Part shown: positions 7,166-33,026 of the stretch, piece by piece
How the letters are laid out: each line of letters opens with the position of its first letter
How positions within the stretch are numbered: position 1 is the first letter of the stretch
IMG/VR virus record: IMGVR_UViG_3300010150_000076
Span: 1 to 33,291 of that record
From: a virus
DNA: 33,291 bases
Direction: 5' to 3' (one strand)
Notes under the pieces: model-generated
The model's database searches: none
The model's input: only the letters and a program-made list of their open reading frames with translations
What the model was told of the DNA's origin: nothing
Made by a program: the position numbers and the translations under genes

Positions 7166-10100
7166 TCAGGATAGCTTTTTCCAGAGCTTGCCGATACGGC
7201 CTCGTGTAGAAAAGCCCCACTGGGCATTGTACTGTGGCTTCAACATATATGGCTTGTTGAGTTCTAGCATATCGCCCATACCGGTGTCAATTCCCCAGCA
7301 TCGAATTCGAATATCGCAAGAGTTTATGTCGGTTACGTCCACTTGGAAGTACTCTTTGCCAGTTGATGTTGTTCGCACAACAATCTTTCTTGGAATACAC
7401 CAGACCAAGCCGTAGCCGTTCTGATGCTCAGAGATAGGTACAACATTCATATTGTCGAGCTTATCAAGAATCTGGCTATCGATCACCCTGTTCAGAGGGA
7501 ACTGGCCTGTAAGCTCGACCAAGAACTGGATTTCCTCTTCCTTAGTGAAGTCGCCTTCTGGTTCATAGAGCGTAATATTCTCGTCCAAGTTCTTTGGCTT
7601 ACGAGGCCGATCAACTGCGATAGCCGACCAGAAGTGCTTTCTGCCTGAGAACCTATCGTCCATAAGATTGTTAAGTGCGCCGCTGCGGCATAGCACATCT
7701 AGAGCCTTCTTGTTGAGCTTGGAGTATCGCATATTCTCATTGAACAAGAAGTCCTCAACCTTCTGGAAAGGTCGGCCCTTGAAAATCTGCTCGATTGCTG
7801 TATCTCCTAGGCCCTTGACACTTGTAAGCGGCTGAATAAATGATGTACCGTCTTCGCTAACTTCCCAAGAAACGCCTGATGTATTGATGTTTAGAGGCTC
7901 GATGTGGTAGCCATAGGACTTTGCAATATTGATTGCCTTCTCCTTTCGGGTCTCTGGCTCCTTGTCCAAGAATGCACAAAGCCATTCCTGCTGGAAGTAT
8001 GTGAACAGCCAAGCACACTGATACGAGATGATTGAGTATGAAACAGCGTGAGACTTGTTGAAACCGTAACCAGAGAAGAACTCAAACTTACGCCAGAGGT
8101 CTTCGGCATCGGAAGCCTTCATTCCCTTCTCAACACAACCATCAACAAAGCGGCCATAGAGCGAAGCAAGAACCTTCTTGGTCTTGCCTGTTCCCTTCTT
8201 GGTTAGAACCTTACGAAGTGAATTGCCCTCGTCAAGAGAGATGTTCTTACCCAACTGGTGAGCAAGAAGAGCAATCTGCTCCTGAAAGATAAGAAATCCA
8301 TAAGTCTCTTCTGTGGTCTCCCGATGCTTCTCGTTGAAGTAAGTAATCATACCCGGAGCGCGGCGGGCGTTGATGAAGTCCTTATCGACGTTTGCAGACA
8401 AAGGACCCGGACGATAAATAGAAGTGATAGCCGAAAGGTCAATGATATTCTTTGGCTTGACGCTCTGACACAATGCCTGCGCTCCGCGCTCTGTGAACTG
8501 GAAGATGCCAGCCCAGTTGCCCTTCTGGAAGACATTACGGTATACTTTGCTATCGTTTAGGTCGAGCACATCAGGGTGCAAGTTCTCATCGTAGAACTTA
8601 CGAATGTCTTGGAACGTTGGCTCTTGAATACCGTGACGGCGCTTCAAGATGTTTGTGATAGCTCCCTCGAACATACGAAGTGTTGCTAGGCCCAAGAGAT
8701 CGTACTTAATGAAACCCATCGGCTCCAAGTGACGGACGTTCTGGCCCTCCGACCAAGGAGTCTGTCGAACGGATTTAGAAGAGATAAGTGGCATACGGCG
8801 ATCAAGATCTTCACCGATAACAACACCACCAGCGTGACGTGAACAAGAGCGAACCTGCCCATATAGTGCGTCGATATGGTGTGCGACATCTGGGTACTTA
8901 CTCAAGAAGCTTTGTAGAGAAGTAGAGAACTCCTTTACCTCTTCAAAAGTCGGGGCGTAGATACCAGCCTTGATGCCGTGCTTCTTCTTTGCGAGGGGCG
9001 TGGCCTCCTGCATCATCACGCCTGTGACCTTGTTTACCTCTGTGTAAGGGATGCCATACAACTTAGAGATGTCCTTAATTAGTGACTTGAGCTGCAAAGT
9101 ATTCCAGTTTGAGATTGGAGCAACTACATTGTCGCCCCAGCGCTCAATAAGAATATCCTTGATACCCATTGCGTCAGAAACGTCAAAGTCAATATCTGGG
9201 TAGTCCTTTGCATCTGTGCGAAGGAACCGGGAGAAGAGTAGGCCGTACTTGATCGGGTCGACCTGCGTGATGTCAAGGGCATATGCAACAAGCGAGCCAG
9301 CTGCAGAACCGCGACCCGGACCTGTGATCATACTCTCGTTTGCAATCTTTACGATCTCATTCATAGTCAAGAAGTACTTTGAGAATCCACGGCTAGAGAT
9401 AACGCCAAGCTCGTAACGAAGACGCTCTGTGTACTCGTTGTTGGTGTGTAGATTCTTTGCGCGGAGACCTTCCATACAGAACTTCTCTAGTGCGCTATCT
9501 TCGGTCTCGCCTGCCGGGACAACGAAAGAGGGGAGCTTGACTGTATTATCAGGCGTGAATGTTTCGATACGGTCGTGGGCAATGCTGTAAGTCTCTGTGA
9601 TGGAATTCATCACTAGCTCATCATCATACTCTGTGTCGCATTCGGCAGAGTACTTCTGGTATGCCGCCCACATCTCGTCGCCATTCTTTGGGTAAAGCTC
9701 ATAGCCGATCTCGTCGACGTTCTCAGGGAGCTCTGTCTCGTCTGCCCATTGTGGGCGACCCTTTCCTAGCCAGCCTAGACGCTTGTAAAGCTCGCGATCC
9801 TTCCAAGCCTCCTTCGAAGGGTAGTGAGAGTCTGCAGTAGAAATAAGCTTAATACCGTACTCTTCGTGCATCTGAATAATAAACTTGTTTAGCTGATGCT
9901 GCTCTGGCACGTTGTTCCACTGTAGCTCACCATACCACCGATCTCCAAAGATAGAGATCATACGCTCGGTGACCTGTCGCATAGCCGCTAGGACAGCCTC
10001 ATCGCCCTCCTCGCGGTTCTCCCACAAACATCCAGCGTAGACCCCACCCAAACAAGCGGAGGCCGCGATGATGCCTTCAGAGTGCTCCTGTAGCATCTTA

Positions 10101-10615
10101 TAATCAACGCGAGGATAGCGGTAGAAGTTTTCGTCTCGGTATGAATCGGAAACCAGCTTGAACAAGTTCTCAAGACCAGTTTGATTCTGCGCCAGAAGGA
10201 TAAGGTGTCGACGTCGGTTAAGGACGCTCTTGGCCGCCTTCTTACTGGCGTTCTCGTCCTCTACAGTTGCGCCGCTAGTGTCGGCACGCTTGGCTGCCTG
10301 TGCCTTCTTCTTGTCGGCCATTACTTCTTCGTAATCAGTCTTCCACTCTTCGTGTGAAGGAATAAAGTAAGCTTCGCATCCGAAGATGGGCTTGAACTCC
10401 TTGCCAGCCTCCATCATCTTCTTGGCGTGGAGAACCTGATGTGCCAAACCATTTTGATTTCCGTGGTCGGTCAGAGCTAGCGCGTTCATACCGTTTTCAT
10501 ATGCGAAATCCATATGGGCGCTTGGGTAGCCTAGCGCATCGAAGATCGATCCTGCTACGCTGTGTGCGTGAAGTCCCACGAATGGGATTGTTGGTTGTGT
10601 TCTTTCAGTCGACAT
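7166..10615 (-). CDS. dnaE: DNA polymerase III alpha subunit-like replicase, family C (1149 aa)
   Basis: Full-length bacterial-type DnaE. The N-terminal PHP domain keeps what appear to be all nine metal-binding residues: H16, H18, D26, H51, E81, H137, C188, D262 and H264. The polymerase domain shows GPGRGSAAGSLVAY near residue 430 and the catalytic YPDIDFD near residue 472, followed by SRHAGGVVIGED near 592. The intact PHP site suggests built-in proofreading. Start ATG 10615 follows GGAGG, with 11 bases of overlap with the zinc-ribbon gene. Family C replicases are uncommon in phages with T4-like SSB, RecA and helicase. No clamp, clamp loader or separate epsilon-like exonuclease lies in this window. 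Confidence 0.95.
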   Translation of the reverse strand: MSTERTQPTIPFVGLHAHSVAGSIFDALGYPSAHMDFAYENGMNALALTDHGNQNGLAHQVLHAKKMMEAGKEFKPIFGCEAYFIPSHEEWKTDYEEVMADKKKAQAAKRADTSGATVEDENASKKAAKSVLNRRRHLILLAQNQTGLENLFKLVSDSYRDENFYRYPRVDYKMLQEHSEGIIAASACLGGVYAGCLWENREEGDEAVLAAMRQVTERMISIFGDRWYGELQWNNVPEQHQLNKFIIQMHEEYGIKLISTADSHYPSKEAWKDRELYKRLGWLGKGRPQWADETELPENVDEIGYELYPKNGDEMWAAYQKYSAECDTEYDDELVMNSITETYSIAHDRIETFTPDNTVKLPSFVVPAGETEDSALEKFCMEGLRAKNLHTNNEYTERLRYELGVISSRGFSKYFLTMNEIVKIANESMITGPGRGSAAGSLVAYALDITQVDPIKYGLLFSRFLRTDAKDYPDIDFDVSDAMGIKDILIERWGDNVVAPISNWNTLQLKSLIKDISKLYGIPYTEVNKVTGVMMQEATPLAKKKHGIKAGIYAPTFEEVKEFSTSLQSFLSKYPDVAHHIDALYGQVRSCSRHAGGVVIGEDLDRRMPLISSKSVRQTPWSEGQNVRHLEPMGFIKYDLLGLATLRMFEGAITNILKRRHGIQEPTFQDIRKFYDENLHPDVLDLNDSKVYRNVFQKGNWAGIFQFTERGAQALCQSVKPKNIIDLSAITSIYRPGPLSANVDKDFINARRAPGMITYFNEKHRETTEETYGFLIFQEQIALLAHQLGKNISLDEGNSLRKVLTKKGTGKTKKVLASLYGRFVDGCVEKGMKASDAEDLWRKFEFFSGYGFNKSHAVSYSIISYQCAWLFTYFQQEWLCAFLDKEPETRKEKAINIAKSYGYHIEPLNINTSGVSWEVSEDGTSFIQPLTSVKGLGDTAIEQIFKGRPFQKVEDFLFNENMRYSKLNKKALDVLCRSGALNNLMDDRFSGRKHFWSAIAVDRPRKPKNLDENITLYEPEGDFTKEEEIQFLVELTGQFPLNRVIDSQILDKLDNMNVVPISEHQNGYGLVWCIPRKIVVRTTSTGKEYFQVDVTDINSCDIRIRCWGIDTGMGDMLELNKPYMLKPQYNAQWGFSTRGRIGKLWKKLS

Positions 10616-13824: not shown

Positions 13825-15681
13825 TTAGATTAGATCACACCCTGATGGGCCGCAAGCAATCTCGCCTGCAAGATCAGTATCGTCCTGCGTCTCGATGATG
13901 TTACGGACGTCTACTTCTGTAAGGTGCTTGAGCATTTCCTCATACTCTTCCTTTGTGCTGTCGGTAAAGGGAGCTTGGATGTAGCTGCCCCCGTCGTGAG
14001 GGAGCACTGATAGGCCGTTGTAGTGTGCGCGGTTTGCCCACATCCAGTCGCGAACCTCATCCCACTCGTGTTCCTTAATGTTAATTGTAGCAGAAACATT
14101 ATGTGTGTTCTGGCCGCTTCTGTGGCCGCCTCTGACCCACTCAACACTGACGCGCTTAACTCTCTCTAGGAGCTCAAGAGCGGTCTCAGAGCGTAGAATA
14201 GCGCCCTCTGGTGCCTTCTGCGGAGCTGAGATAACAGCGGTGTCGTGTGGTCGGAAGTACTCGTCCTCAACCAACTCTGGGTGGTACTCTGAGAGGTAAG
14301 AGTAGATTGCTTCGTTCTTGCCAACGCGGATACGACGAATGTAGTAATCGTTGTGCCAAGCGTGGATACCGGAAGAGGTACCTAGAGTTAGTGAAGTAGT
14401 TCCTGCAGGCTTGACGCAGGTAGTACGGGCAGCTGGTCTAATTCCTAGAAGGTCTGCAACGCGAGCGTTCTCTTCCTTGACTACAGCAGCGCCTGCTGCC
14501 ATATCGAGATCGAGGATGCGACCTGAAGCAATACCGGTCATAGAAACGCCTACAAGTGCATCCTTTTCGGTGTGACGCTGCCATACTGGACGGAGGTAAT
14601 GGAAGTCGGTGTATGAAGCCTGCAGTGTGCCGATAAAGGTTGCTGCACGGACACGAGCCTCGTAGTCTTCCTGTGATTCCACATCACTTACGTTGATCTC
14701 TGTAAGGTTGCAGAACTGGTAAGGTCGGAGTGCGATCTCGCAGCAAGGGTTGGTTCCCCAGTCCTTGTCGTTTGAAAGATAAATACCGGGCTCACCTGCA
14801 CCAGAAGCACGGATACGCTCCCAGAGGTCTGCAAAGTACTCCTCAGTGATTCGGTGACGGAGTAGAGTTGCGGAGTTGTTTGCACGACCACGTTGTGGGT
14901 TGGTCTCCCACCAGTTGCCGCTCTTGCAGGAAATCATTTCCTCGTCGTCTGCGGAGAAGAGCGAGATTAGTGCTGCGCGACGGATACCACCAGCTAGGAC
15001 AGCATCAGCAATGTGGCACATAATATCGTGCGCCTCAAGTGGGCTTAGCTTGTCGCCATCTTGCTTGTTAGCAAGGATACCCTCAACCTTTACAAGGCAC
15101 TCCTTGAGTGGCTGTGGGCCGGGAGCCTTACCGCCAGAAGTAACGAGACGAGCACCCTTTGGACGAATGTCGGAGAAGTCAAAACGGATCTTTGATGTGC
15201 CACGGGTGTATGAGTAGAGTAGAGCCTTTACAGCATCAGCCCAGCCCTCGATGCTATCAGCAACTAGGAAGCGACGGGTGCGATTTGTGCGTGGCTTTGA
15301 AATCTCTGGAAGCTTCTCAACGTGGTGACGTTGAACAGAGAAGCCGACGCCGGTTCCACCAAGGAGAAGGAACATAGCTTCTGAAAAAGAACGTAGGTCA
15401 TCAATTGGCATATAGGCGCAATTGTAAATACGGTTTGGCGCAACTTCGATAGGCTTGCCACCGAACTGCATTGAACGCATTGAAGGCAGCACCTTGCGTG
15501 CGTGAACAAATTGATAGGCTGCCTCAATCTCTTCTGCGAGTTGTGGGTGCTTCTTAATGTGCATAGCCTTATTGCGGTCGACAATCTCAGAGAAGGTCTC
15601 GCGACGTACCTTGTCGGCATCGTAACGAGCATACTTCATATGGACTGTAATATCTGAAAGGATCTTTGATGCGATTTCCAT
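13825..15681 (-). CDS. nrdJ: Class II (B12-dependent) ribonucleotide reductase (618 aa)
   Basis: Adenosylcobalamin-dependent reductase making deoxyribonucleotides without oxygen and without a second subunit, consistent with no nrdB nearby. Recognised by NCAYMPID near residue 87, the catalytic NPCCEI...FCNLTEIN block near residue 312, the MTGIASG and CVKPAGTTSL motifs in the barrel, and the C-terminal cysteine pair C610/C615 (CGPSGC) that recharges the active site. Its size fits monomeric RTPR-type enzymes. The start overlaps the helicase stop as TAATG. It supplies dNTPs for the replisome, with ThyX and the deaminase. Confidence 0.95.
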   Translation of the reverse strand: MEIASKILSDITVHMKYARYDADKVRRETFSEIVDRNKAMHIKKHPQLAEEIEAAYQFVHARKVLPSMRSMQFGGKPIEVAPNRIYNCAYMPIDDLRSFSEAMFLLLGGTGVGFSVQRHHVEKLPEISKPRTNRTRRFLVADSIEGWADAVKALLYSYTRGTSKIRFDFSDIRPKGARLVTSGGKAPGPQPLKECLVKVEGILANKQDGDKLSPLEAHDIMCHIADAVLAGGIRRAALISLFSADDEEMISCKSGNWWETNPQRGRANNSATLLRHRITEEYFADLWERIRASGAGEPGIYLSNDKDWGTNPCCEIALRPYQFCNLTEINVSDVESQEDYEARVRAATFIGTLQASYTDFHYLRPVWQRHTEKDALVGVSMTGIASGRILDLDMAAGAAVVKEENARVADLLGIRPAARTTCVKPAGTTSLTLGTSSGIHAWHNDYYIRRIRVGKNEAIYSYLSEYHPELVEDEYFRPHDTAVISAPQKAPEGAILRSETALELLERVKRVSVEWVRGGHRSGQNTHNVSATINIKEHEWDEVRDWMWANRAHYNGLSVLPHDGGSYIQAPFTDSTKEEYEEMLKHLTEVDVRNIIETQDDTDLAGEIACGPSGCDLI

Positions 15682-20903: not shown

Positions 20904-21740
20904 CTACCCCTGTCTGTTTTGAATAAAAGATGTATGCTTTACAACATACGCGAAATCCCTATCGTAATTGGTAGGGAAGATTCCAAAGGACAAGCTATGA
21001 TCATCGGCCAATCTTGTTTTAAGTTCCTCTCGGATCTTCTGTAGAAGATTGCCTGATTGTCGTAACCTCTCCTCACTGACAGCATAAATATAGCACGATT
21101 CTCGGGCCGGGTCAAGCTTAAAAAACATCTGCTCTTCGCCTGTCTCAATATCCTTGCTTCCAACAGCAGTAATTCGACAGGCATCTTGTGGGTCTTCTAG
21201 GGATCCCATAATTGGAGAGTTGTTTTTATAAATATTAAGGGTATGGATGGTTGAACCAATGATCTGATTGATCTGGTCCCAATAGCCGATAACTGGCAGC
21301 TCGCCGATAATGTTCTCGATACTGTTGTTATCGAACAAATAAATTCTTTCAAAATGTCCCGAACGGGTGTACTGTTGTAGGACGTGGTATACAACCTTCT
21401 CGTGTTTCTGCCTAGTGGCATTCAACATAGTGGTATCTGGTTGGATGTATACAATGGATACTTCTCGGTCCCCAAGTGCTTGCCGCAACTGTAGGGACAA
21501 GACCGACGTGTAGGATGCCCCACACACAAAAATCACTACTTCTTCATCGTCCATTTTCTCTACGAAGGATGAAAAATTTGGCGACGACTCTTCATACTGC
21601 TCAGGCCCCTTCTGTTTTTTAATCCTAAGCGTCTCCTTGCCGTGTTGTAGGTGGTCTACATAGAAAACCGTATATTGACTATAGTCTTCAAACCACTTCG
21701 CTACACGGCTTCCTACGCCGCCGAGACCGATGATATTCAT
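20904..21740 (-). CDS. Tubulin/Rossmann-like protein (278 aa), conserved phage unknown
   Basis: The N-terminus MNIIGLGGVGSRVA is a glycine-rich nucleotide-binding loop after a strand. Residues 68-86 (VVIFVCGASYTSVLSLQLR) have the layout of a second phosphate-binding loop, as in FtsZ/tubulin proteins, but the strict GGGTGTG motif is missing. Relatives with this pattern (QEYARSGxFERIYLxDN-like segment, here QQYTRSGHFERIYLFDN) are known to me from marine phages as unknowns. It overlaps the polymerase stop by ATGA. A cytoskeletal or nucleotide-sensing role is a hypothesis. Confidence 0.6.
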   Translation of the reverse strand: MNIIGLGGVGSRVAKWFEDYSQYTVFYVDHLQHGKETLRIKKQKGPEQYEESSPNFSSFVEKMDDEEVVIFVCGASYTSVLSLQLRQALGDREVSIVYIQPDTTMLNATRQKHEKVVYHVLQQYTRSGHFERIYLFDNNSIENIIGELPVIGYWDQINQIIGSTIHTLNIYKNNSPIMGSLEDPQDACRITAVGSKDIETGEEQMFFKLDPARESCYIYAVSEERLRQSGNLLQKIREELKTRLADDHSLSFGIFPTNYDRDFAYVVKHTSFIQNRQG

Positions 21741-22912
21741 AGAGGTAGTTCCTTTAGGTTTCCGAAATCCTTCCCGGTCATACAGGAAGTAACAAATCCG
21801 TCTTCTCGCATAATGCTGAGAACATCTTTAACGACACCTCTCTCTTCCCAATCCATATCGATGACAATCGAGTCGTGAATAGTGAAGGCGATGCGAGACT
21901 TCTTGTTCTTTAGTAGTTCATTGATAGCGATGATTCTGGACATCACGTAATCAGCCGTTGTGCTCTGGATAAGGTACGAGATTGCGTTTTCTCTTTCTAC
22001 TTCGATTGTTCTTCCGAACGGGTTTGTAACTGTGCCGTCTTTCCAGAAGTCTCTCAAGATCTTGTCGCGGCCATACGCGGCCTCTAGGTGATCGTTTCTC
22101 TTGTCGAGGTCATATAACCAAGAGAACATTAGGCGCTTGGCCATATCTCGTGTCGTATGACGATCAAAGATATTTTGAATGTTCCAGTCGTGAATGTCGA
22201 TCTGTGGCTGGTCCTTCCCAAGAATATAAAACAATGAGCGAAGGTCCGCTGCGTTGATGTCGAGCTCCAAGAACCAGTCATTGTTTGGACGCACGTAAGG
22301 ACGATACTCTTTGTTAAGTCGCAAGATTGGGAAAGATGTCTTTGATGTTGTTAGACGTCCTGTGGCTGATCCGTAGACACGGTAGTGTGTGATCATTGAA
22401 TGCTTTGACAAGGAGTTCAGGAATGCCTTACCCTTGTCATTATACTTCTCTCTACGAAGTTGTGCAACATCTAAATTAACTTTATATCCGTTGATCTCGT
22501 TTACGGCTTCGTGTGCTGCAACCATAAAGTTGTGATTCACTGGGCGTGTGTGGTTGTCAAACACCCACTGTGTGATCTTGTTCTTGATTGCCGAGTGGTC
22601 CTTGAGGAAGCCTTGCGGCACGAGGTCAAAGAAGCAGTTTTGGGTGAGGTCTACTTTTGCTAGTCGAAAGGAACTGTAGTAAGCCAGCAGCCTCTCGTTA
22701 ACTCTTTCCCACTCTTCGCGATACTGCGAAGGGCAAACTTCATCTAGAGTCTTGCCTTGTGCCCAGATGTGAGCATAGTCAACGCCAGACTCCAAGTATG
22801 GAGTCCAAGACCAAGTTCTAGACAGTCCGTCTGGAACGTATCCAAAATGAAGTTCGTCAGCGACATAGACACCTACGCAGTTGTCCTTGTCGTCAAATGT
22901 TTGGAATAGCAA
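21737..22912 (-). CDS. Reduced family A DNA polymerase (391 aa)
   Basis: Only the polymerase domain is present; no 3'-5' exonuclease domain precedes it. Motif A is LELDINAADLR with catalytic D218 (usually D-Y-S-Q-I-E-L-R). The fingers helix is R255-DMA-K259-RLM-F263-SWLY267-D. Motif C is H346-D347-S348, where most relatives have His-Asp-Glu. GSATGRLTTS (181-190) and the Q316 helix are also family features. Start is TTG 22912 with AGAGG in front, an unusual choice. The Phe at 263 predicts discrimination against dideoxynucleotides. Possibly a repair or gap-filling enzyme beside DnaE. Confidence 0.85.
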   Translation of the reverse strand: MLFQTFDDKDNCVGVYVADELHFGYVPDGLSRTWSWTPYLESGVDYAHIWAQGKTLDEVCPSQYREEWERVNERLLAYYSSFRLAKVDLTQNCFFDLVPQGFLKDHSAIKNKITQWVFDNHTRPVNHNFMVAAHEAVNEINGYKVNLDVAQLRREKYNDKGKAFLNSLSKHSMITHYRVYGSATGRLTTSKTSFPILRLNKEYRPYVRPNNDWFLELDINAADLRSLFYILGKDQPQIDIHDWNIQNIFDRHTTRDMAKRLMFSWLYDLDKRNDHLEAAYGRDKILRDFWKDGTVTNPFGRTIEVERENAISYLIQSTTADYVMSRIIAINELLKNKKSRIAFTIHDSIVIDMDWEERGVVKDVLSIMREDGFVTSCMTGKDFGNLKELPL

Positions 22913-27430: not shown

Positions 27431-28030
27431 TTATACCTCAAATGGGAACTTGTTATTGGAGGGACGGAGCCACTTGCCATCAGCTGTGAAGCCAGCGACT
27501 TCCCTGTGAATGATAGAAAGATTAAAGTTGACTGTGAAGTAGCGAGGCGCTACCTTTCCGTCTGCGACCTGCGCAGTGTTAATAATGTTAGCTGCGTCAG
27601 CGTATTCGAACTTCATCCCATCCAAGAAGCCAACTTCGTCCAAGAGAGGCGACGCATTGCCTACTGGTCGGAGTATAACTCTGAAAAGTGGTGGTGATTC
27701 AAGAGCGTTCTTGTCTGCAGAGTAAACAGCATATTGTGTTCGCATAAGCCTCTTTAGCTTGTCGAACTGCGCCTTCGCTCTAGCTCCGTCTTCTTGCAAG
27801 ACTGTGAAAGAGCCGGCTGCAGTTCTCTCGTTGCCCTCAAAGAACCTCATAGGATCTGTCCTGCCAAAAGCAGTCTCAGCACTGGTCTTGGTCATAATAT
27901 TATCTGAGTAGCTATTGAGGATGATAGGAGTAAACTTTGAGCTTGCATTTACGTGCAAAGCAATAAATTCAATGCTACCCAAATCTTCCTGCGGGCCAGA
28001 GAATCCAGAATCGTATGGATTTAGAATCAT
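27431..28030 (-). CDS. Baseplate/tail-tube-associated structural protein (199 aa)
   Basis: Contains FGRTDPMRFFEGNERTA, a motif typical of a group of tail structural proteins in large marine phages, followed by strands (LFRVILRPVG, YFTVNFNLSI). The position directly after the tape measure suggests a tube-initiation or tail cap role, as for T4 gp48/gp54. The start ATG overlaps the tape measure stop (ATGA). Exact homology is uncertain. Confidence 0.6.
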   Translation of the reverse strand: MILNPYDSGFSGPQEDLGSIEFIALHVNASSKFTPIILNSYSDNIMTKTSAETAFGRTDPMRFFEGNERTAAGSFTVLQEDGARAKAQFDKLKRLMRTQYAVYSADKNALESPPLFRVILRPVGNASPLLDEVGFLDGMKFEYADAANIINTAQVADGKVAPRYFTVNFNLSIIHREVAGFTADGKWLRPSNNKFPFEV

Positions 28031-30063
28031 CCCATATCTCCTCTAGTAATTAGTCTGGTGACAGAATTACCAAGTTTAGTGCCTTCGTCGATCTCCAAGA
28101 TCTCTCCGATTGTTGTTGCCAATTCCCGGTCGCCAATGCTGAACGCTACCTTGACCGTTGGCTGGAAGTCAATGACCTGTGAAGATGCTGAAGATGTCTG
28201 TGCTGAGGCGGGGGCTGATAGTTCTGTCAATCTTGTCCCAAACATAACAGCGTCGTCTTCTCTGCCGATGAATGTGCCCTTCGCTGTCTTAACAACTGGT
28301 CGGTTGTCATTGCTGGCAGGGATGAGGGCGTCCTCTACAGGCTCTGGCTCTGTGGAGGCCATAAGTGCCCCTACTGCAGCGCCAGTCAATGCTAGGCCAC
28401 CAACTACCCCTGCCATAGCAAGAGGGCCGCCTAGACCGATCAGGCCAGCCATTGCGGTCAATGATGCAACTAGTGGTGGCAAGAACGAGAAGGCGATAGC
28501 GCCGCCCAGTACGGTCATCGCTCCGGCAAGAGCACCCATAGCAGCTGGTGATTCCCCTAGGTAGTTCATTACTTGCGACAAGCCATCAGCAAAGCCTACC
28601 ATAACATTTACTAGCGGCTCTGCGGCGATTATAAGATTCATAAATGAATTTTGCATCTTCTCCGTGATGGTATTGAAGTTGCTCATCTGAGCAGCCTGTT
28701 CTTCAATGTCCTGTGGGGTTAGTTCTGGTGGCACAATAGAGTCGAAGTTTCTTGCCATAACCAAAGCTAGCTGGTTAACGTCCTTGAGACCAGCAGCTGA
28801 CGCAATCGCCTGTTTCTCGTAGTAGCCCATATCTTGGAAGGATCTTCCAGTCTGGTCTAGTGCGTCGGCTAGCATCTCGAACCTTGCTGCGGGGTCAGTC
28901 TCTCCGACCATTTCTAGTGTACTCAAGAAGGGACCGCCCAATACTGCATTTAGCCTGCCTACACTCTGTGCTGCACCTTCGAATGTATCGAACTGTCTCG
29001 TGATGGCTACTAGTTCAGCAATAGGGATATTTGTGGCCTTGGCCTGCACTGCTAGAGAAGCAAACTGATCCTCAAGCTCCGCTGATGAATTTGCTGATGC
29101 TCCGAGGACTTGGCGGGCAGCTTCAAATCCGCTGGTAAGCTCGTCAATGGGCATACCTAGTTGTGTTGCTAGTCCGGCCAAGGCGGTATTGAATCCCTGA
29201 GCTTCGTTCATTGAAAGGCCCATAGATTTATTTAGGAAGAGTACATTCTTGGCCTGCATATCTAGGCCAAAGCCCATCTTCTCTAGCATTGCTGCAGATT
29301 GCGCAATCTCTGATCTCTGCGTCGCTGTTAGTTCTGTAAATCCTCTGACCTGTGTGAAGAAGCTTTGGAAGGCTGCTGTCGCATCGTTGACACCAACGCC
29401 GACATTTAACAACTCTGTTGAGAGATTTACCAACTCATCACTGTATTCGCCCGTGTTTCCTGTTGCTCTGTTGAATGCAACAACAGACTGGTCAATGGCA
29501 AAGGCCATTCCAACATTGGCCGCCACAACAGCCATAGAAGCTTGTACGGCTGCGTCAGCCATTGCCACCTGAACGTTTTCTAGCGTGAAGAGTTGTGCTG
29601 CGGCTTCGTCTGCATTCTTTCTCAATAGATCAAGAGCACCCGAAAAGCCACCTGCTGCCTTTACTGCTCGGCCTAGGCTTGTCTCTGCCGTCTCGGAAAC
29701 GCCAGTGATTGCTGTATAGAATGTCTTGATGTCGTTGACGTTCTTTCTTTCTAGCTCCGCGATTTCCATTAGTCGCTGGGATTCGGTCTCCAGTTGAAGC
29801 AGGCGAGTCTTATGTCGGGCAGACGCTTCATCGTCTCCCTTCTTAACGGCTTCCATATAAGCGCGCTCAGCTTCTGCAGCTGATGCTCTCGCTTGGCCAA
29901 GCTTCTCTTCCTCGGCTGCCATACGCTTGAGGACTTCAGCGCCGTTGCCTAGAATGGTATTGGCCTCGATTCTAGCGAGGTTGAGTTCTTTCTGTAGTTC
30001 GAGTCGAGCTGCTTGTTGTTCGTAGCTCTCCAAGTCTCTACCGCCAATATCACCTTCGGCCAT
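28027..30063 (-). CDS. Tail tape measure protein (678 aa)
   Basis: Sets tail length and reaches through the tail tube. The N-terminal 130 residues are a charged coiled coil (AAEEEKLGQARASAAEAE and similar), the middle is Ala/Gly/Leu-rich and helical, and residues around 510-560 are strongly hydrophobic (LPPLVASLTAMAGLIGLGG ... MAGVVGGLALTGAAVGALMA). Using the rule of about 0.15 nm per residue, a tail of about 100 nm would follow; this is inference. It is preceded by the gp26/51-like chaperone pair, as tape measures in many phages are. SD AGGAG precedes the ATG at 30063. Confidence 0.85.
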   Translation of the reverse strand: MAEGDIGGRDLESYEQQAARLELQKELNLARIEANTILGNGAEVLKRMAAEEEKLGQARASAAEAERAYMEAVKKGDDEASARHKTRLLQLETESQRLMEIAELERKNVNDIKTFYTAITGVSETAETSLGRAVKAAGGFSGALDLLRKNADEAAAQLFTLENVQVAMADAAVQASMAVVAANVGMAFAIDQSVVAFNRATGNTGEYSDELVNLSTELLNVGVGVNDATAAFQSFFTQVRGFTELTATQRSEIAQSAAMLEKMGFGLDMQAKNVLFLNKSMGLSMNEAQGFNTALAGLATQLGMPIDELTSGFEAARQVLGASANSSAELEDQFASLAVQAKATNIPIAELVAITRQFDTFEGAAQSVGRLNAVLGGPFLSTLEMVGETDPAARFEMLADALDQTGRSFQDMGYYEKQAIASAAGLKDVNQLALVMARNFDSIVPPELTPQDIEEQAAQMSNFNTITEKMQNSFMNLIIAAEPLVNVMVGFADGLSQVMNYLGESPAAMGALAGAMTVLGGAIAFSFLPPLVASLTAMAGLIGLGGPLAMAGVVGGLALTGAAVGALMASTEPEPVEDALIPASNDNRPVVKTAKGTFIGREDDAVMFGTRLTELSAPASAQTSSASSQVIDFQPTVKVAFSIGDRELATTIGEILEIDEGTKLGNSVTRLITRGDMG

Positions 30064-30073
30064 AGCCTAGCTC

Positions 30074-31138
30074 CTACTTAAATGGCCACTTGAGGCCGGT
30101 TTCTCTTTCGAAATTACGGATTGAAGTTGCCAATCTTGCTCGTGACTGATAGGTCTGTCGATTACTAAGACCGTATCTCTGGATGGAATCGATGTACCTC
30201 TTTTCACCTTGGATTGCGCGAGCAAAAGCTTCTACTTCTTTCTTGTCGCCCGATACGCCAATTGGTAGATCGATGTCGCCAAAAACAGACTTAAGAATAA
30301 GTTTGACCCAAGCCCCGAACATACCTGCGATGCCCTCTGTCAAAAGGCCATTCTTTTTGGCCATCGAGAGATTGAAGTTAAATTCGTAACTCTGTGATTC
30401 GTTTACTGGGGCTGTGTTAATATATTGTTCGTATGCGTCGGCAAGGTCGCGCTCCACCTTGTCTGCTACCTGATTTACATCAGCAGTATTGAAGTTAGCA
30501 TCGTCGGAAAGGAACTCATAAATGGCCTCTCGGGTCAGCTCTTTGCCGGACAACGCCTGCTTACCTTCGTCACTAATCGCGTCGTTGGCGCCGATCATAT
30601 TATCTAGACCCAATGAATTAGTCTTTGCCACGACGTAGTTTAGGAACTTGCCTTTCAAGCCCGTTACGTATTCTTCTGGTTCTGCAATGAACCGTGCAAC
30701 AGCAGCTTGAATAATCTTGTCGTTATCGTTTTCTGGCTCTGCTGTCACCTGCTGACGTGCAACTACGTTAGGCTTAATCGCGTCTGTGACTTGGTTGATG
30801 ACTTCATCATCTAGCTCAGTGACATTGAGTTCGCTCTTTAGAAAGTCGAGAATCTTGTCGACTACTGTGCGTAGCTCTTCTTTCTCAAACTTAGCTTCGA
30901 ACAATTCTACTTCATCGTCGTCTTGGGTGGGAGCTTTTCTGGCCATCGCAGTCTCTAGGGCCGCAAAGGGAGGCATCCTATCGGCAAAGAAGTTCACCAC
31001 TTCATTGTACCTGTTTGAGCCGCGTGTTTCCTCGCCAATCATAAGCAAGAATCTGGCAGCGTAATCTAGGAGGTCGTCATACTTCTCTACGTATTCGTTT
31101 TCGAACCTCTGCAGTGTTCTTACGTCTGCTTCAGCCAT
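30074..31138 (-). CDS. Unknown tail-module protein (354 aa)
   Basis: ATG 31138 is preferred over 31153 because GGAG lies seven bases upstream of it. The protein is acidic in the first third (QDDDEVELFEAKFEKEEL) and predicted helical throughout, ending with a basic segment (YQSRARLATSIRNFERETG). A short hydrophobic region near residues 276-292 (GIAGMFGAWVKLILKSV) may be amphipathic. Its place directly before the tape measure suggests a tail assembly or virion role. No family recognised. Confidence 0.65.
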   Translation of the reverse strand: MAEADVRTLQRFENEYVEKYDDLLDYAARFLLMIGEETRGSNRYNEVVNFFADRMPPFAALETAMARKAPTQDDDEVELFEAKFEKEELRTVVDKILDFLKSELNVTELDDEVINQVTDAIKPNVVARQQVTAEPENDNDKIIQAAVARFIAEPEEYVTGLKGKFLNYVVAKTNSLGLDNMIGANDAISDEGKQALSGKELTREAIYEFLSDDANFNTADVNQVADKVERDLADAYEQYINTAPVNESQSYEFNFNLSMAKKNGLLTEGIAGMFGAWVKLILKSVFGDIDLPIGVSGDKKEVEAFARAIQGEKRYIDSIQRYGLSNRQTYQSRARLATSIRNFERETGLKWPFK

Positions 31139-31151
31139 AGTATACTCCATC

Positions 31152-31195
31152 ATTATAAATAGTTTGTAAAAAGAAAGCCGGGACGATCCCCGGCT
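31152..31195 (-). terminator. Intrinsic terminator and -10 box after the gp51-like frame
   Basis: AGCCGGG (31176-31182) and CCCGGCT (31189-31195) form a perfect 7-bp stem with six-base loop. The minus strand continues with TTCTTTTT, a good terminator tail. The TAG stop of the preceding frame lies partly in the stem. TATAAT (31157-31152) just downstream could be the -10 of a new promoter for the 354-residue gene, but no -35 is visible. Confidence 0.7.
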
Positions 31196-31382
31196 ATTTA
31201 TTTTTGTTTTGAGCTTCTTCCATCATCTTCTTTTCCTCTTCCTTCTGTTGAACTAGGCGATTGATGAACCAACGCCTAATAACAACTGGAAGATTATAAG
31301 CCTCGAAGAAAGACCATTGGCCGTGATACTTTAGAGTGAACAACTCTTCATACACGGCCTGAATGTACTCATTGCCTAGGCC
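31194..31382 (-). CDS. gp51-like chaperone frame, probably reached by frameshift
   Basis: This 62-residue frame (ends NKNK) has no ATG until its last part and no ribosome binding site. It opens right at the T7 run (31383-31389) at the end of the gp26-like gene. Its sequence, with AYNLPVVIRRWFINRLVQQKEEEKK, matches a short tail protein of T4-type phages that follows the gp26 gene (gp51-like). A +1 or -2 shift in TTTTTTTGG would fuse it to the upstream protein. It precedes the tape measure region, where the G/GT-type chaperones of other phages sit. Confidence 0.75.
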   Translation of the reverse strand, partial: GLGNEYIQAVYEELFTLKYHGQWSFFEAYNLPVVIRRWFINRLVQQKEEEKKMMEEAQNKNK

Positions 31383-32223
31383 AAAAAAATTCTACTGACA
31401 TAGGCAGTTCCACCTCCTGTTCCGCTCCGCAGTTTCCACAGTTAAGTGATACTTCTGTGTTCATTGCTGGACTTACAGCAGCGTGAATGTCACGTAGGTA
31501 CTTTGAATCCCTGAATGGCATATTCTGGATGAACTGGTGTAGCTGCGCTCGTGCTGTGACACCATTAATGCTATGTACCGAATAGAGCATCTGTGTTGTT
31601 AGCGCTCCTACCTCAACATTATTCTTCTTCTGCTTTTTAAGGTAATCGGTGATCTCTCTTTCGTCCTTGCCTGTGAGGAGTCGTAGAGCAACCTTGACCT
31701 TGGTAGCAGGAAGAGTACACACGTAGTGGCCATCTTCAAAGGTCACGCCAAGCTCGTCGAGATTTGGCTCTTCACGAGGAGCAATCTCTGTAAGATCAAA
31801 CTCGTGTGATACTGCGTTGTTGCAAGAACGGCAGAAGAACTTTGCGTTATAGCCCTCGCCATATGCAGAAATTCGTGCAGCATACATAATAGCTGTCTTG
31901 TCGCCCACTAGCATTGATGATGCGTTGACACGCTTATCAACGATAATGCTCTGGATTAGGCGGTCTAGAACCACGCCTTTCTTGATTAGCTCCTGTGATG
32001 AAAGAATGTCTTCTTCCTTCGCGGTCATAAACTTAATTTCTACACTGTCTTTGCCGTGTAGAGGATGGCCAGCAGGATAGTGAATACCCTTAGAAGGTAG
32101 GTCAACGAACTGTGTTGGCGCTACAAAAGACATTAGATCTGTGATGTTTGGCTGCGCTGGCTCTTCTGCAGCAGGAGCAGCTGGCTCTGCGGGAACCGCA
32201 AAGCGTGAACTGTTATCTCTCAT
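31369..32223 (-). CDS. gp26-like baseplate hub / tail-assembly chaperone (284 aa)
   Basis: The N-terminal half matches the T4_baseplate (gp26) family: LPSKG (42-46), MTAKEEDILSSQELIKKGVVLDRLI and VGDKTAIMYAARISAYGEGY. Two CxxC pairs (C131/C134 and C262/C265) could bind zinc. The first 30 residues are Ala/Pro-rich and probably disordered. Upstream is a sigma70-like promoter and a GGAG ribosome site. The gene ends two codons after the T7 run used for the proposed frameshift. It likely acts on the tape measure or hub during tail assembly. Confidence 0.85.
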   Translation of the reverse strand: MRDNSSRFAVPAEPAAPAAEEPAQPNITDLMSFVAPTQFVDLPSKGIHYPAGHPLHGKDSVEIKFMTAKEEDILSSQELIKKGVVLDRLIQSIIVDKRVNASSMLVGDKTAIMYAARISAYGEGYNAKFFCRSCNNAVSHEFDLTEIAPREEPNLDELGVTFEDGHYVCTLPATKVKVALRLLTGKDEREITDYLKKQKKNNVEVGALTTQMLYSVHSINGVTARAQLHQFIQNMPFRDSKYLRDIHAAVSPAMNTEVSLNCGNCGAEQEVELPMSVEFFWPRQ

Positions 32224-32254: not shown

Positions 32255-32282
32255 ATTATAACTCATCAATACCTGAAGTCAA
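32255..32282 (-). promoter_or_regulatory. Sigma70-type promoter for the gp26-like gene
   Basis: TTGACT (32282-32277), 16 bases, TATAAT (32260-32255) on the minus strand. The -10 is perfect, the -35 five of six, spacing one short of ideal. It is unusual to find such a promoter in a late module, but it is the best-looking one in the right half of the window. Confidence 0.7.
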
Positions 32283-32285
32283 GAA

Positions 32286-33026
32286 CTATTTTGGTTTGTT
32301 TCCAAAAGCGTATGTGTTTTTCTTGCCGGAGGTGCCAAGCTCTACTTCAAAGCCTGTGTATCCTACAGTTGCTTGAATTTCTACGAACCCGTCTGCGGAG
32401 TAATCTAGGTTTCCGAAGTCAACACTTAGAAGGTGTGCTTGGTGCAGTGTCCATCTCTCAACAACCTCAAGATTTGAATCTCTTCTAGTAGCTCCGGCGA
32501 TAGCAGCTGAGGCTCCTGCAGCAACGGCAGAAGTCGCAGCACCTGCAGCGGCGGTGGCGGCAGCCGCAGATGCCACTGTCGAGGCGTCAAGGCCCCTTGT
32601 TAAATCGCTTACTCTTTTATGCGCAAGTTGACTAATCTCAAGCGTGCCAAAGTTGTTAGAGGCATTTGCGAGGCCGTAGTAGTCATTTGTCTTTGCATTT
32701 GTTTCTAGGTATTGCATCAGCCTATCTACAACTCGATTATTACCTTCTTCTGTTCCGTTTGGGTCGATGAATGTGATGCTAATCGGACTGAAGGCTTGTA
32801 GCGCGCCCGGATTAATATAGCCAAGCTTTTGCCCTGCTTGGCCAGCGCCCATAACGAAAGCGCCGGCCTGCGGGCCTGCATTGGCCTCAAACTGCACTGA
32901 AGGCTTGTTTACGTTCTTTGCAAACCATAAAACTTCGTCCCCAAAAAGACCATTCATTCTTACTAGGAATAAATCTTGCCTCTTTGGGGACAAATTGTTT
33001 GCACCGACTTGGGTCCAGAATGCCAT
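32286..33026 (-). CDS. gp19-like tail tube protein, copy with Ala-rich insert (246 aa)
   Basis: Tail tube subunit of the T4 gp19 type: the N-terminus has LSPKRQDLFLVRMNG, and the C-terminus has ERWTLHQAHLLSVDFGNLDYSADGFVEIQATVGY. Between them lies an Ala-rich segment (about residues 148-180, 19 alanines in 33), unusual for a tube protein. The start ATG 33026 follows GAGAGG. It lies next to a second gp19-like gene at the right edge. Confidence 0.82.
   Translation of the reverse strand: MAFWTQVGANNLSPKRQDLFLVRMNGLFGDEVLWFAKNVNKPSVQFEANAGPQAGAFVMGAGQAGQKLGYINPGALQAFSPISITFIDPNGTEEGNNRVVDRLMQYLETNAKTNDYYGLANASNNFGTLEISQLAHKRVSDLTRGLDASTVASAAAATAAAGAATSAVAAGASAAIAGATRRDSNLEVVERWTLHQAHLLSVDFGNLDYSADGFVEIQATVGYTGFEVELGTSGKKNTYAFGNKPK

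Follow-up and report, generated by a model that had tools for sequence, protein, structure and literature searches.

Sequence evidence for a probable programmed +1 frameshift between gp26-like and gp51-like tail-assembly chaperones in a group of mostly uncultured aquatic phages

The tail-assembly chaperones gpG and gpGT of bacteriophage lambda are a short product and its frameshift-extended form, which arise by a -1 shift in a gene situated between those for the tail tube and the tape measure (Xu, Hendrix and Duda; reviewed in PMC5009743). The same review, of 2016, describes G-T frameshifting as widespread among long-tailed phages "except T4" (PMC5009743). Sites of +1 shifting are known as well, for example in prfB (CUU U) and in Listeria phage PSA (CCC U), where one tRNA in the P site moves forward by one base to a codon overlapping the first (PMC5009743, PMC10885494). 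Here, we describe a phage locus that shares with lambda the gene order and the predicted short and extended products, but the shift would be +1 and the G protein is of the T4 gp26 type (PF12322). The presumed slip of a single P-site tRNA is that of prfB and PSA, whereas the site is of the UUU-pyrimidine kind, UGG rather than a stop codon would occupy the A site, and a Shine-Dalgarno (SD)-like element lies much farther upstream.

Since gp26 and gp51 of T4 both match PF12322 (E = 8.8e-64 and 3.9e-52, respectively), they are, on this sequence evidence, paralogues, one with the G part only and the other with the G and T parts in frame. In gp51, PF12322 covers residues 1-201, and the C-terminal extension resembles cyanophage gp51 (phrog_634, E = 1.2e-23; profile comparison, E = 3.6e-6). 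Thus T4 has the same G domain twice and a related T part, but in two divergently transcribed genes with the T part fused in frame, whereas one gene and a putative frameshift are present here. Vladimirov et al., in 2022 (Virology 566:9-15), reportedly identified the tail-assembly chaperones of T4-like phages. A paper citing that work credits it with poly-T -1 signals in T4-like tail chaperones (PMC12846349), so the gp26/gp51 assignment and the -1 shifting are probably already known.

Cyanophages such as S-PM2, Syn1 and P-SSM2 have homologous G and T parts, an FF slip site and no conserved T start codon, as found here, but their site is U UUU UUC, their T frame is -1, and in many of them a GAGGG-like sequence occurs about 10 nt upstream. 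We examined 26 loci of cyanophages and other T4-like phages. In 24 of them, T TTT TTY stands at the end of gp26 and the -1 frame runs into gp51, the exceptions being S-SCSM1 and Vibrio K469; cyanophages thus appear, from sequence, to use a -1 site. It has been noted that the first ~200 residues are missing from gp51 in cyanophages and marine vibriophage (Sullivan et al., PMC3037559), and a frameshift from gp26 would explain these missing N-terminal residues. The annotated starts of cyanophage gp51 are inconsistent (L092, L093-L095 and L097-L099; products of ~43-62 aa) and the annotation is absent in S-CAM1, as would be expected of a frame that lacks its own start codon and is entered from gp26 by a -1 shift. 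S-SCSM1 (L096, 1584-1774) retains T TTT TTC, but its -1 frame is interrupted and gp51 is found in the +1 frame, with ATGs close by; either shifting has genuinely been lost here or the sequence contains an error.

The window, that is, the whole stretch of 33,291 nt that was analyzed, belongs to a marine phage and carries the gp26-like gene G on the minus strand (31369..32223; 284 aa in the zero frame), the putative short tail-assembly chaperone (TAC-N). In profile searches, G matches PF12322 T4_baseplate (E = 1.3e-12, 48.3 bits against a curated cut-off of 24.5) and phrog_150 baseplate hub (E = 2.3e-15). The original prediction held that G ends in GAA TTT TTT TGG, that a stop follows six codons later and that the -1 frame is closed almost at once. 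The minus strand indeed reads GTA GAA TTT TTT TGG CCT AGG CAA TGA at the 3' end of G, and the -1 frame reads TTG GCC TAG; the stop needs correction, the TGA (31369..31371) being the fifth codon after TTT TTT. The candidate slip site is the U7 run itself (31383..31389, minus strand; zero frame UUU UUU UGG), on which tRNA-Phe could slip +1 from UUU to UUU. The window has 12 homopolymer runs of at least six nucleotides, and among the predicted genes checked an in-frame TTT TTT T is unique to this site. No Rfam match was found anywhere in the window.

The +1 frame is open for 65 codons (31194..31391, minus strand), its translation begins NFFGLGNEYIQAVYEELFTLKYHGQWSFFEAYNLPVVIRRWFINRL..., and the T part translated after a slip would comprise the 62 codons of 31197-31382. 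A TAG lies directly upstream, the first possible starts are GTG and TTG, and no ATG occurs before the core motif, which bears out the claim of a gp51-like frame without a usable start. As in pairs of the G/GT type, this second reading frame would be joined to the first at a slippery site near its 3' end. The codon-position differences of the T domain (33063/18971/54043) are commonest at the third position, which is the pattern of a coding frame. In a profile-profile comparison, the window-type T domain matches the cyanophage gp51 family phrog_634 (E = 6.5e-7, probability 92); the single-sequence search of the window's own domain gave no direct match to that family. Direct profile comparison with T4 gp51 gave no match (E = 0.54), and the T domain is therefore linked to T4 gp51 through cyanophage gp51. 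DUF6760 (PF20546) is matched by 10 of 21 relatives, with E values down to 7.7e-5, while the T domain of the window itself, at E = 0.11, is below the cut-off. A further DUF6760 search of the window gave no match, but its controls were silent as well. Among cultured phages, Microcystis phage Mel-JY01 is the only match in a direct T-domain search.

The structure predicted for the G-T fusion has a mean pLDDT of 85.5, with a confident G domain, a helical T domain and a low-confidence linker (residues 274-282) spanning the slip site. In the PDB, the model matches best with 2ob9, the tail assembly chaperone of HK97, though weakly (Foldseek E = 0.69, Z = 4.8, rmsd 5.4 over 96 residues), and a sequence search of solved structures gave no match. 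Among predicted viral proteins, the named matches are mainly T4-like baseplate hub proteins.

The upstream neighbor of G encodes a tail tube protein (32286..33026, minus strand; phrog_4542 tail tube, E = 3.6e-9). On the other side, the candidate tape-measure protein of 678 aa (28027..30063, minus strand) is named from position and size, profile searches of tape-measure families having given no match for it. G therefore lies between the tail tube and the putative tape-measure genes. The position "just upstream of the tape measure" given in the original prediction is approximate only, since a gene for a 359-aa protein without family match (30074-31153, minus strand) intervenes between the T domain and the candidate. 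In phage immuto and the Bacillus phage SP-15, the annotated tape-measure gene follows G with one short hypothetical ORF between, which is probably a T-domain fragment; these "hypothetical protein" annotations (immuto, L083 3833-3943; SP-15, L085 3755-3874) resemble T-domain fragments called from internal starts. Around G there are also a sigma-70-like promoter match upstream (TTGACT-16-TATAAT, 32255..32282, minus strand; 11/12 positions) and, by pattern match, a terminator-like hairpin directly after the T stop codon (31176..31195, minus strand), which are suggestive only, the counts of promoter-like and terminator-like sites in the region each equaling those in shuffled sequences.

A scan of viral contigs for relatives yielded 80 loci, and the conservation of the T run, which the original prediction proposed to check, proved nearly complete: TTT TTT TGG is present in 79 of them and TTT CTT TGG in one. 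Cultured phages show the same, with TTT TTT TGG in Mel-JY01 and TTT CTT TGG in Flavobacterium phage immuto. The run is identical in a separately assembled contig with 100% protein identity (L001) and likewise in 78 further loci, and the T domain is in the +1 frame at every one of the 80 that is long enough to show it. Two further scans added 97 analyzable loci, of which 42 have TTT TTT TGG, 34 TTT CTT TGG, 14 TTC TTT TGG, 4 TTT CTA TGG and 1 TTT CTT TAC, while 2 have separate genes. Among 59 representatives (less than 90% identical to one another), the first Phe slip codon is TTT in all 59, compared with 26% TTC among the Phe codons elsewhere in G, and 3, 4 or (once) 6 sense codons separate slip and stop. 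When 176 columns were ranked by synonymous conservation, the slip codons and their neighbors came near the top. On a 57-tip tree, no TTT/TTC change fell on the two slip codons, against 9-16 at eight other conserved Phe columns; this tree count takes relatedness into account, while the binomial p-values ignore it. As judged by these comparisons, the slip site and its arrangement are real and conserved, and common to hundreds of related phages.

Based on these observations, a programmed +1 frameshift at the U7 run very probably yields the predicted long chaperone G-T from the gene of the short one, as the original prediction proposed in joining the gp26-like and gp51-like proteins; slip site, frame, codons and protein domain are all conserved. 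One mRNA would give two tail-assembly chaperones. Most ribosomes would end at the TGA, producing the short G of 284 aa (...EFFWPRQ). In a minority, the P-site tRNA-Phe on the UUU of UUU UUU UGG would move one base forward and re-pair with UUU, after which reading would go on with GGC CUA..., giving a G-T fusion of 342 aa (...EFF-GLGNEY...). We infer from the sequences that slippage occurs, that its rate is that of a minority event and that it is ribosomal. The best interpretation of the two products is that of a short and a long tail-assembly chaperone of the lambda G/GT type, and if the fusion acted like lambda GT, its G part would hold the tape measure while its T part recruited the tail tube.

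Then, is the shift +1 or -2? Both lead into one and the same frame, and the original prediction left the choice between them. A -2 ribosomal shift at U7, which would add one extra Phe, has a precedent, since -2 frameshifting has been reported for phage Mu. Within the U7 clade it is compatible with the pairing rules, as a tRNA reading the UUU of run positions 4-6 would find UUU again two bases back; moreover, the third base of the first codon is invariably T in this clade, and a far-upstream SD sequence would, if anything, pull backwards. However, related clades carry sites where only +1 re-pairing works. In TTC TTT TGG, a -2 move from the second Phe codon would bring tRNA-Phe onto UCU, which it cannot read; in TTT CTA TGG, re-pairing is possible only one base forward, from UUU to UUC; and the TTC TTT CGT of Streptococcus GXN1 behaves as TTC TTT TGG does. 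All +1-frame members that have a Phe slip site are thus compatible with a UUU to UUY slip by +1, while Mu-type re-pairing two bases back fits some of them only. Consequently, +1 is the best reading under the re-pairing rules, and a -2 shift is improbable.

Slippage in the -1 direction seems to be avoided. With a T before the run, the sequence would become U UUU UUU, the canonical -1 heptamer, and the base 5' of the run is T in only 1 of the 59 representatives and in none of at least 120 loci found by a pattern scan of viral contigs. Before the run, GAC is used instead of GAT in 29 of 30 cases, compared with 32% GAC elsewhere. We read the avoidance as probable selection against -1 slippage, which would meet a stop one codon on in 53 of the 59.

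The +1 site is accompanied by an SD-like sequence, AGGAGGUG, at 31411..31418 on the minus strand, 21 nt from U7. Measured from GGAGGU, the gap to the run is 22 nt in the window and 16 nt in most relatives. Of the 59 representatives, 50 have a GGAGG-type sequence in the 40 nt preceding the run, compared with a frequency of 7.8% elsewhere in these genes. Synonymous codon choice at the element favors such a sequence, with Leu codons ending in G in 12 of 12 (27% expected) and Glu encoded by GAG in 44 of 49 (33% expected). The pattern scan mentioned above used GGAGGT-N4..34-TTTTTTTGGCCT; its loci were picked by pattern, so the result shows specificity rather than frequency. All of the at least 120 matches listed are at the G/T junction with the T domain in the +1 frame, the gap being 16 nt in 61, 22 nt in 43 and 25 nt in 10 of them. 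We infer that the GGAGGU element would assist the slip. Against the model, the distance, mostly 16-25 nt, exceeds that of known SD-stimulated sites and is unlike the classical spacing of prfB (+1) or dnaX (-1), and a search for a downstream stem-loop or pseudoknot found no excess folding (z of -0.56 versus -0.63 in controls).

If RNA polymerase rather than the ribosome slipped on T7, a share of the mRNAs would be one U short and the product would be identical, for which the conserved homopolymer could be taken as an argument. But a run of seven T is short for slippage by RNA polymerase, relatives have interrupted runs (TTTCTTT, TTCTTTT and TTTCTAT) at the same junction, and the SD-like element points to the ribosome, all of which makes transcriptional slippage very unlikely. 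It is just as hard to believe that the T domain is a separate small protein made by re-initiation or internal initiation. In three distant relatives (L087, L130 and L135), G and T do appear to be separate genes, an ATG coinciding with the G stop or following closely on it, for instance the TAATG of LR756511 (L087), and the SD-like element lies upstream of the T frame; homologues of this kind, named in the original prediction as evidence against it, thus exist, but as a small minority of distant relatives. Among the 59 representatives, however, 29 have no ATG, GTG or TTG in the first 18 T codons, and no start within these codons has an SD-like 4-mer in front of it. The T frame keeps FFGL at the junction. 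The element was also considered as an internal initiation site and rejected, no start codon being conserved after GGAGG in any frame in the representatives. Finally, a sequencing or assembly error hiding a true T6 and an in-frame fusion, against which the original prediction had advised a check, is suggested by the metagenomic origin and the homopolymer, but its probability is negligible with T7 present in 79 of 80 related contigs, in the cultured Mel-JY01 and in at least 120 pattern matches.

With the programmed +1 shift as the preferred reading, a large group of phages from marine and fresh waters, most of them uncultured, would be placed in the tail-chaperone frameshift family. On balance, we lean towards the broader view that one widespread aquatic lineage has a two-part +1 signal, composed of GGAGGU 16-25 nt upstream and a UUU-pyrimidine site with T excluded before it so as to suppress -1 slippage, while its T4-like sister groups use a -1 shift or an in-frame paralogue and a few have separate genes. 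What looks new is the +1 variant together with its wide occurrence and the upstream element, no description of the +1 site having turned up in literature searches. The natural sites UUU UUU, UUU CUU, UUC UUU and UUU CUA constitute a panel for testing the requirements of bacterial +1 frameshifting and of a distant SD-like element.

Elsewhere in the window, three genes on the minus strand may be mentioned. The first (7166-10615) encodes a bacterial-type DNA polymerase III alpha subunit of 1149 aa with a PHP domain, the second (21737-22912) a short family A DNA polymerase-like protein of 391 aa in which only residues 305-365 were matched, and the third (13825-15681) a ribonucleotide reductase with a B12-dependent (class II) insertion domain.
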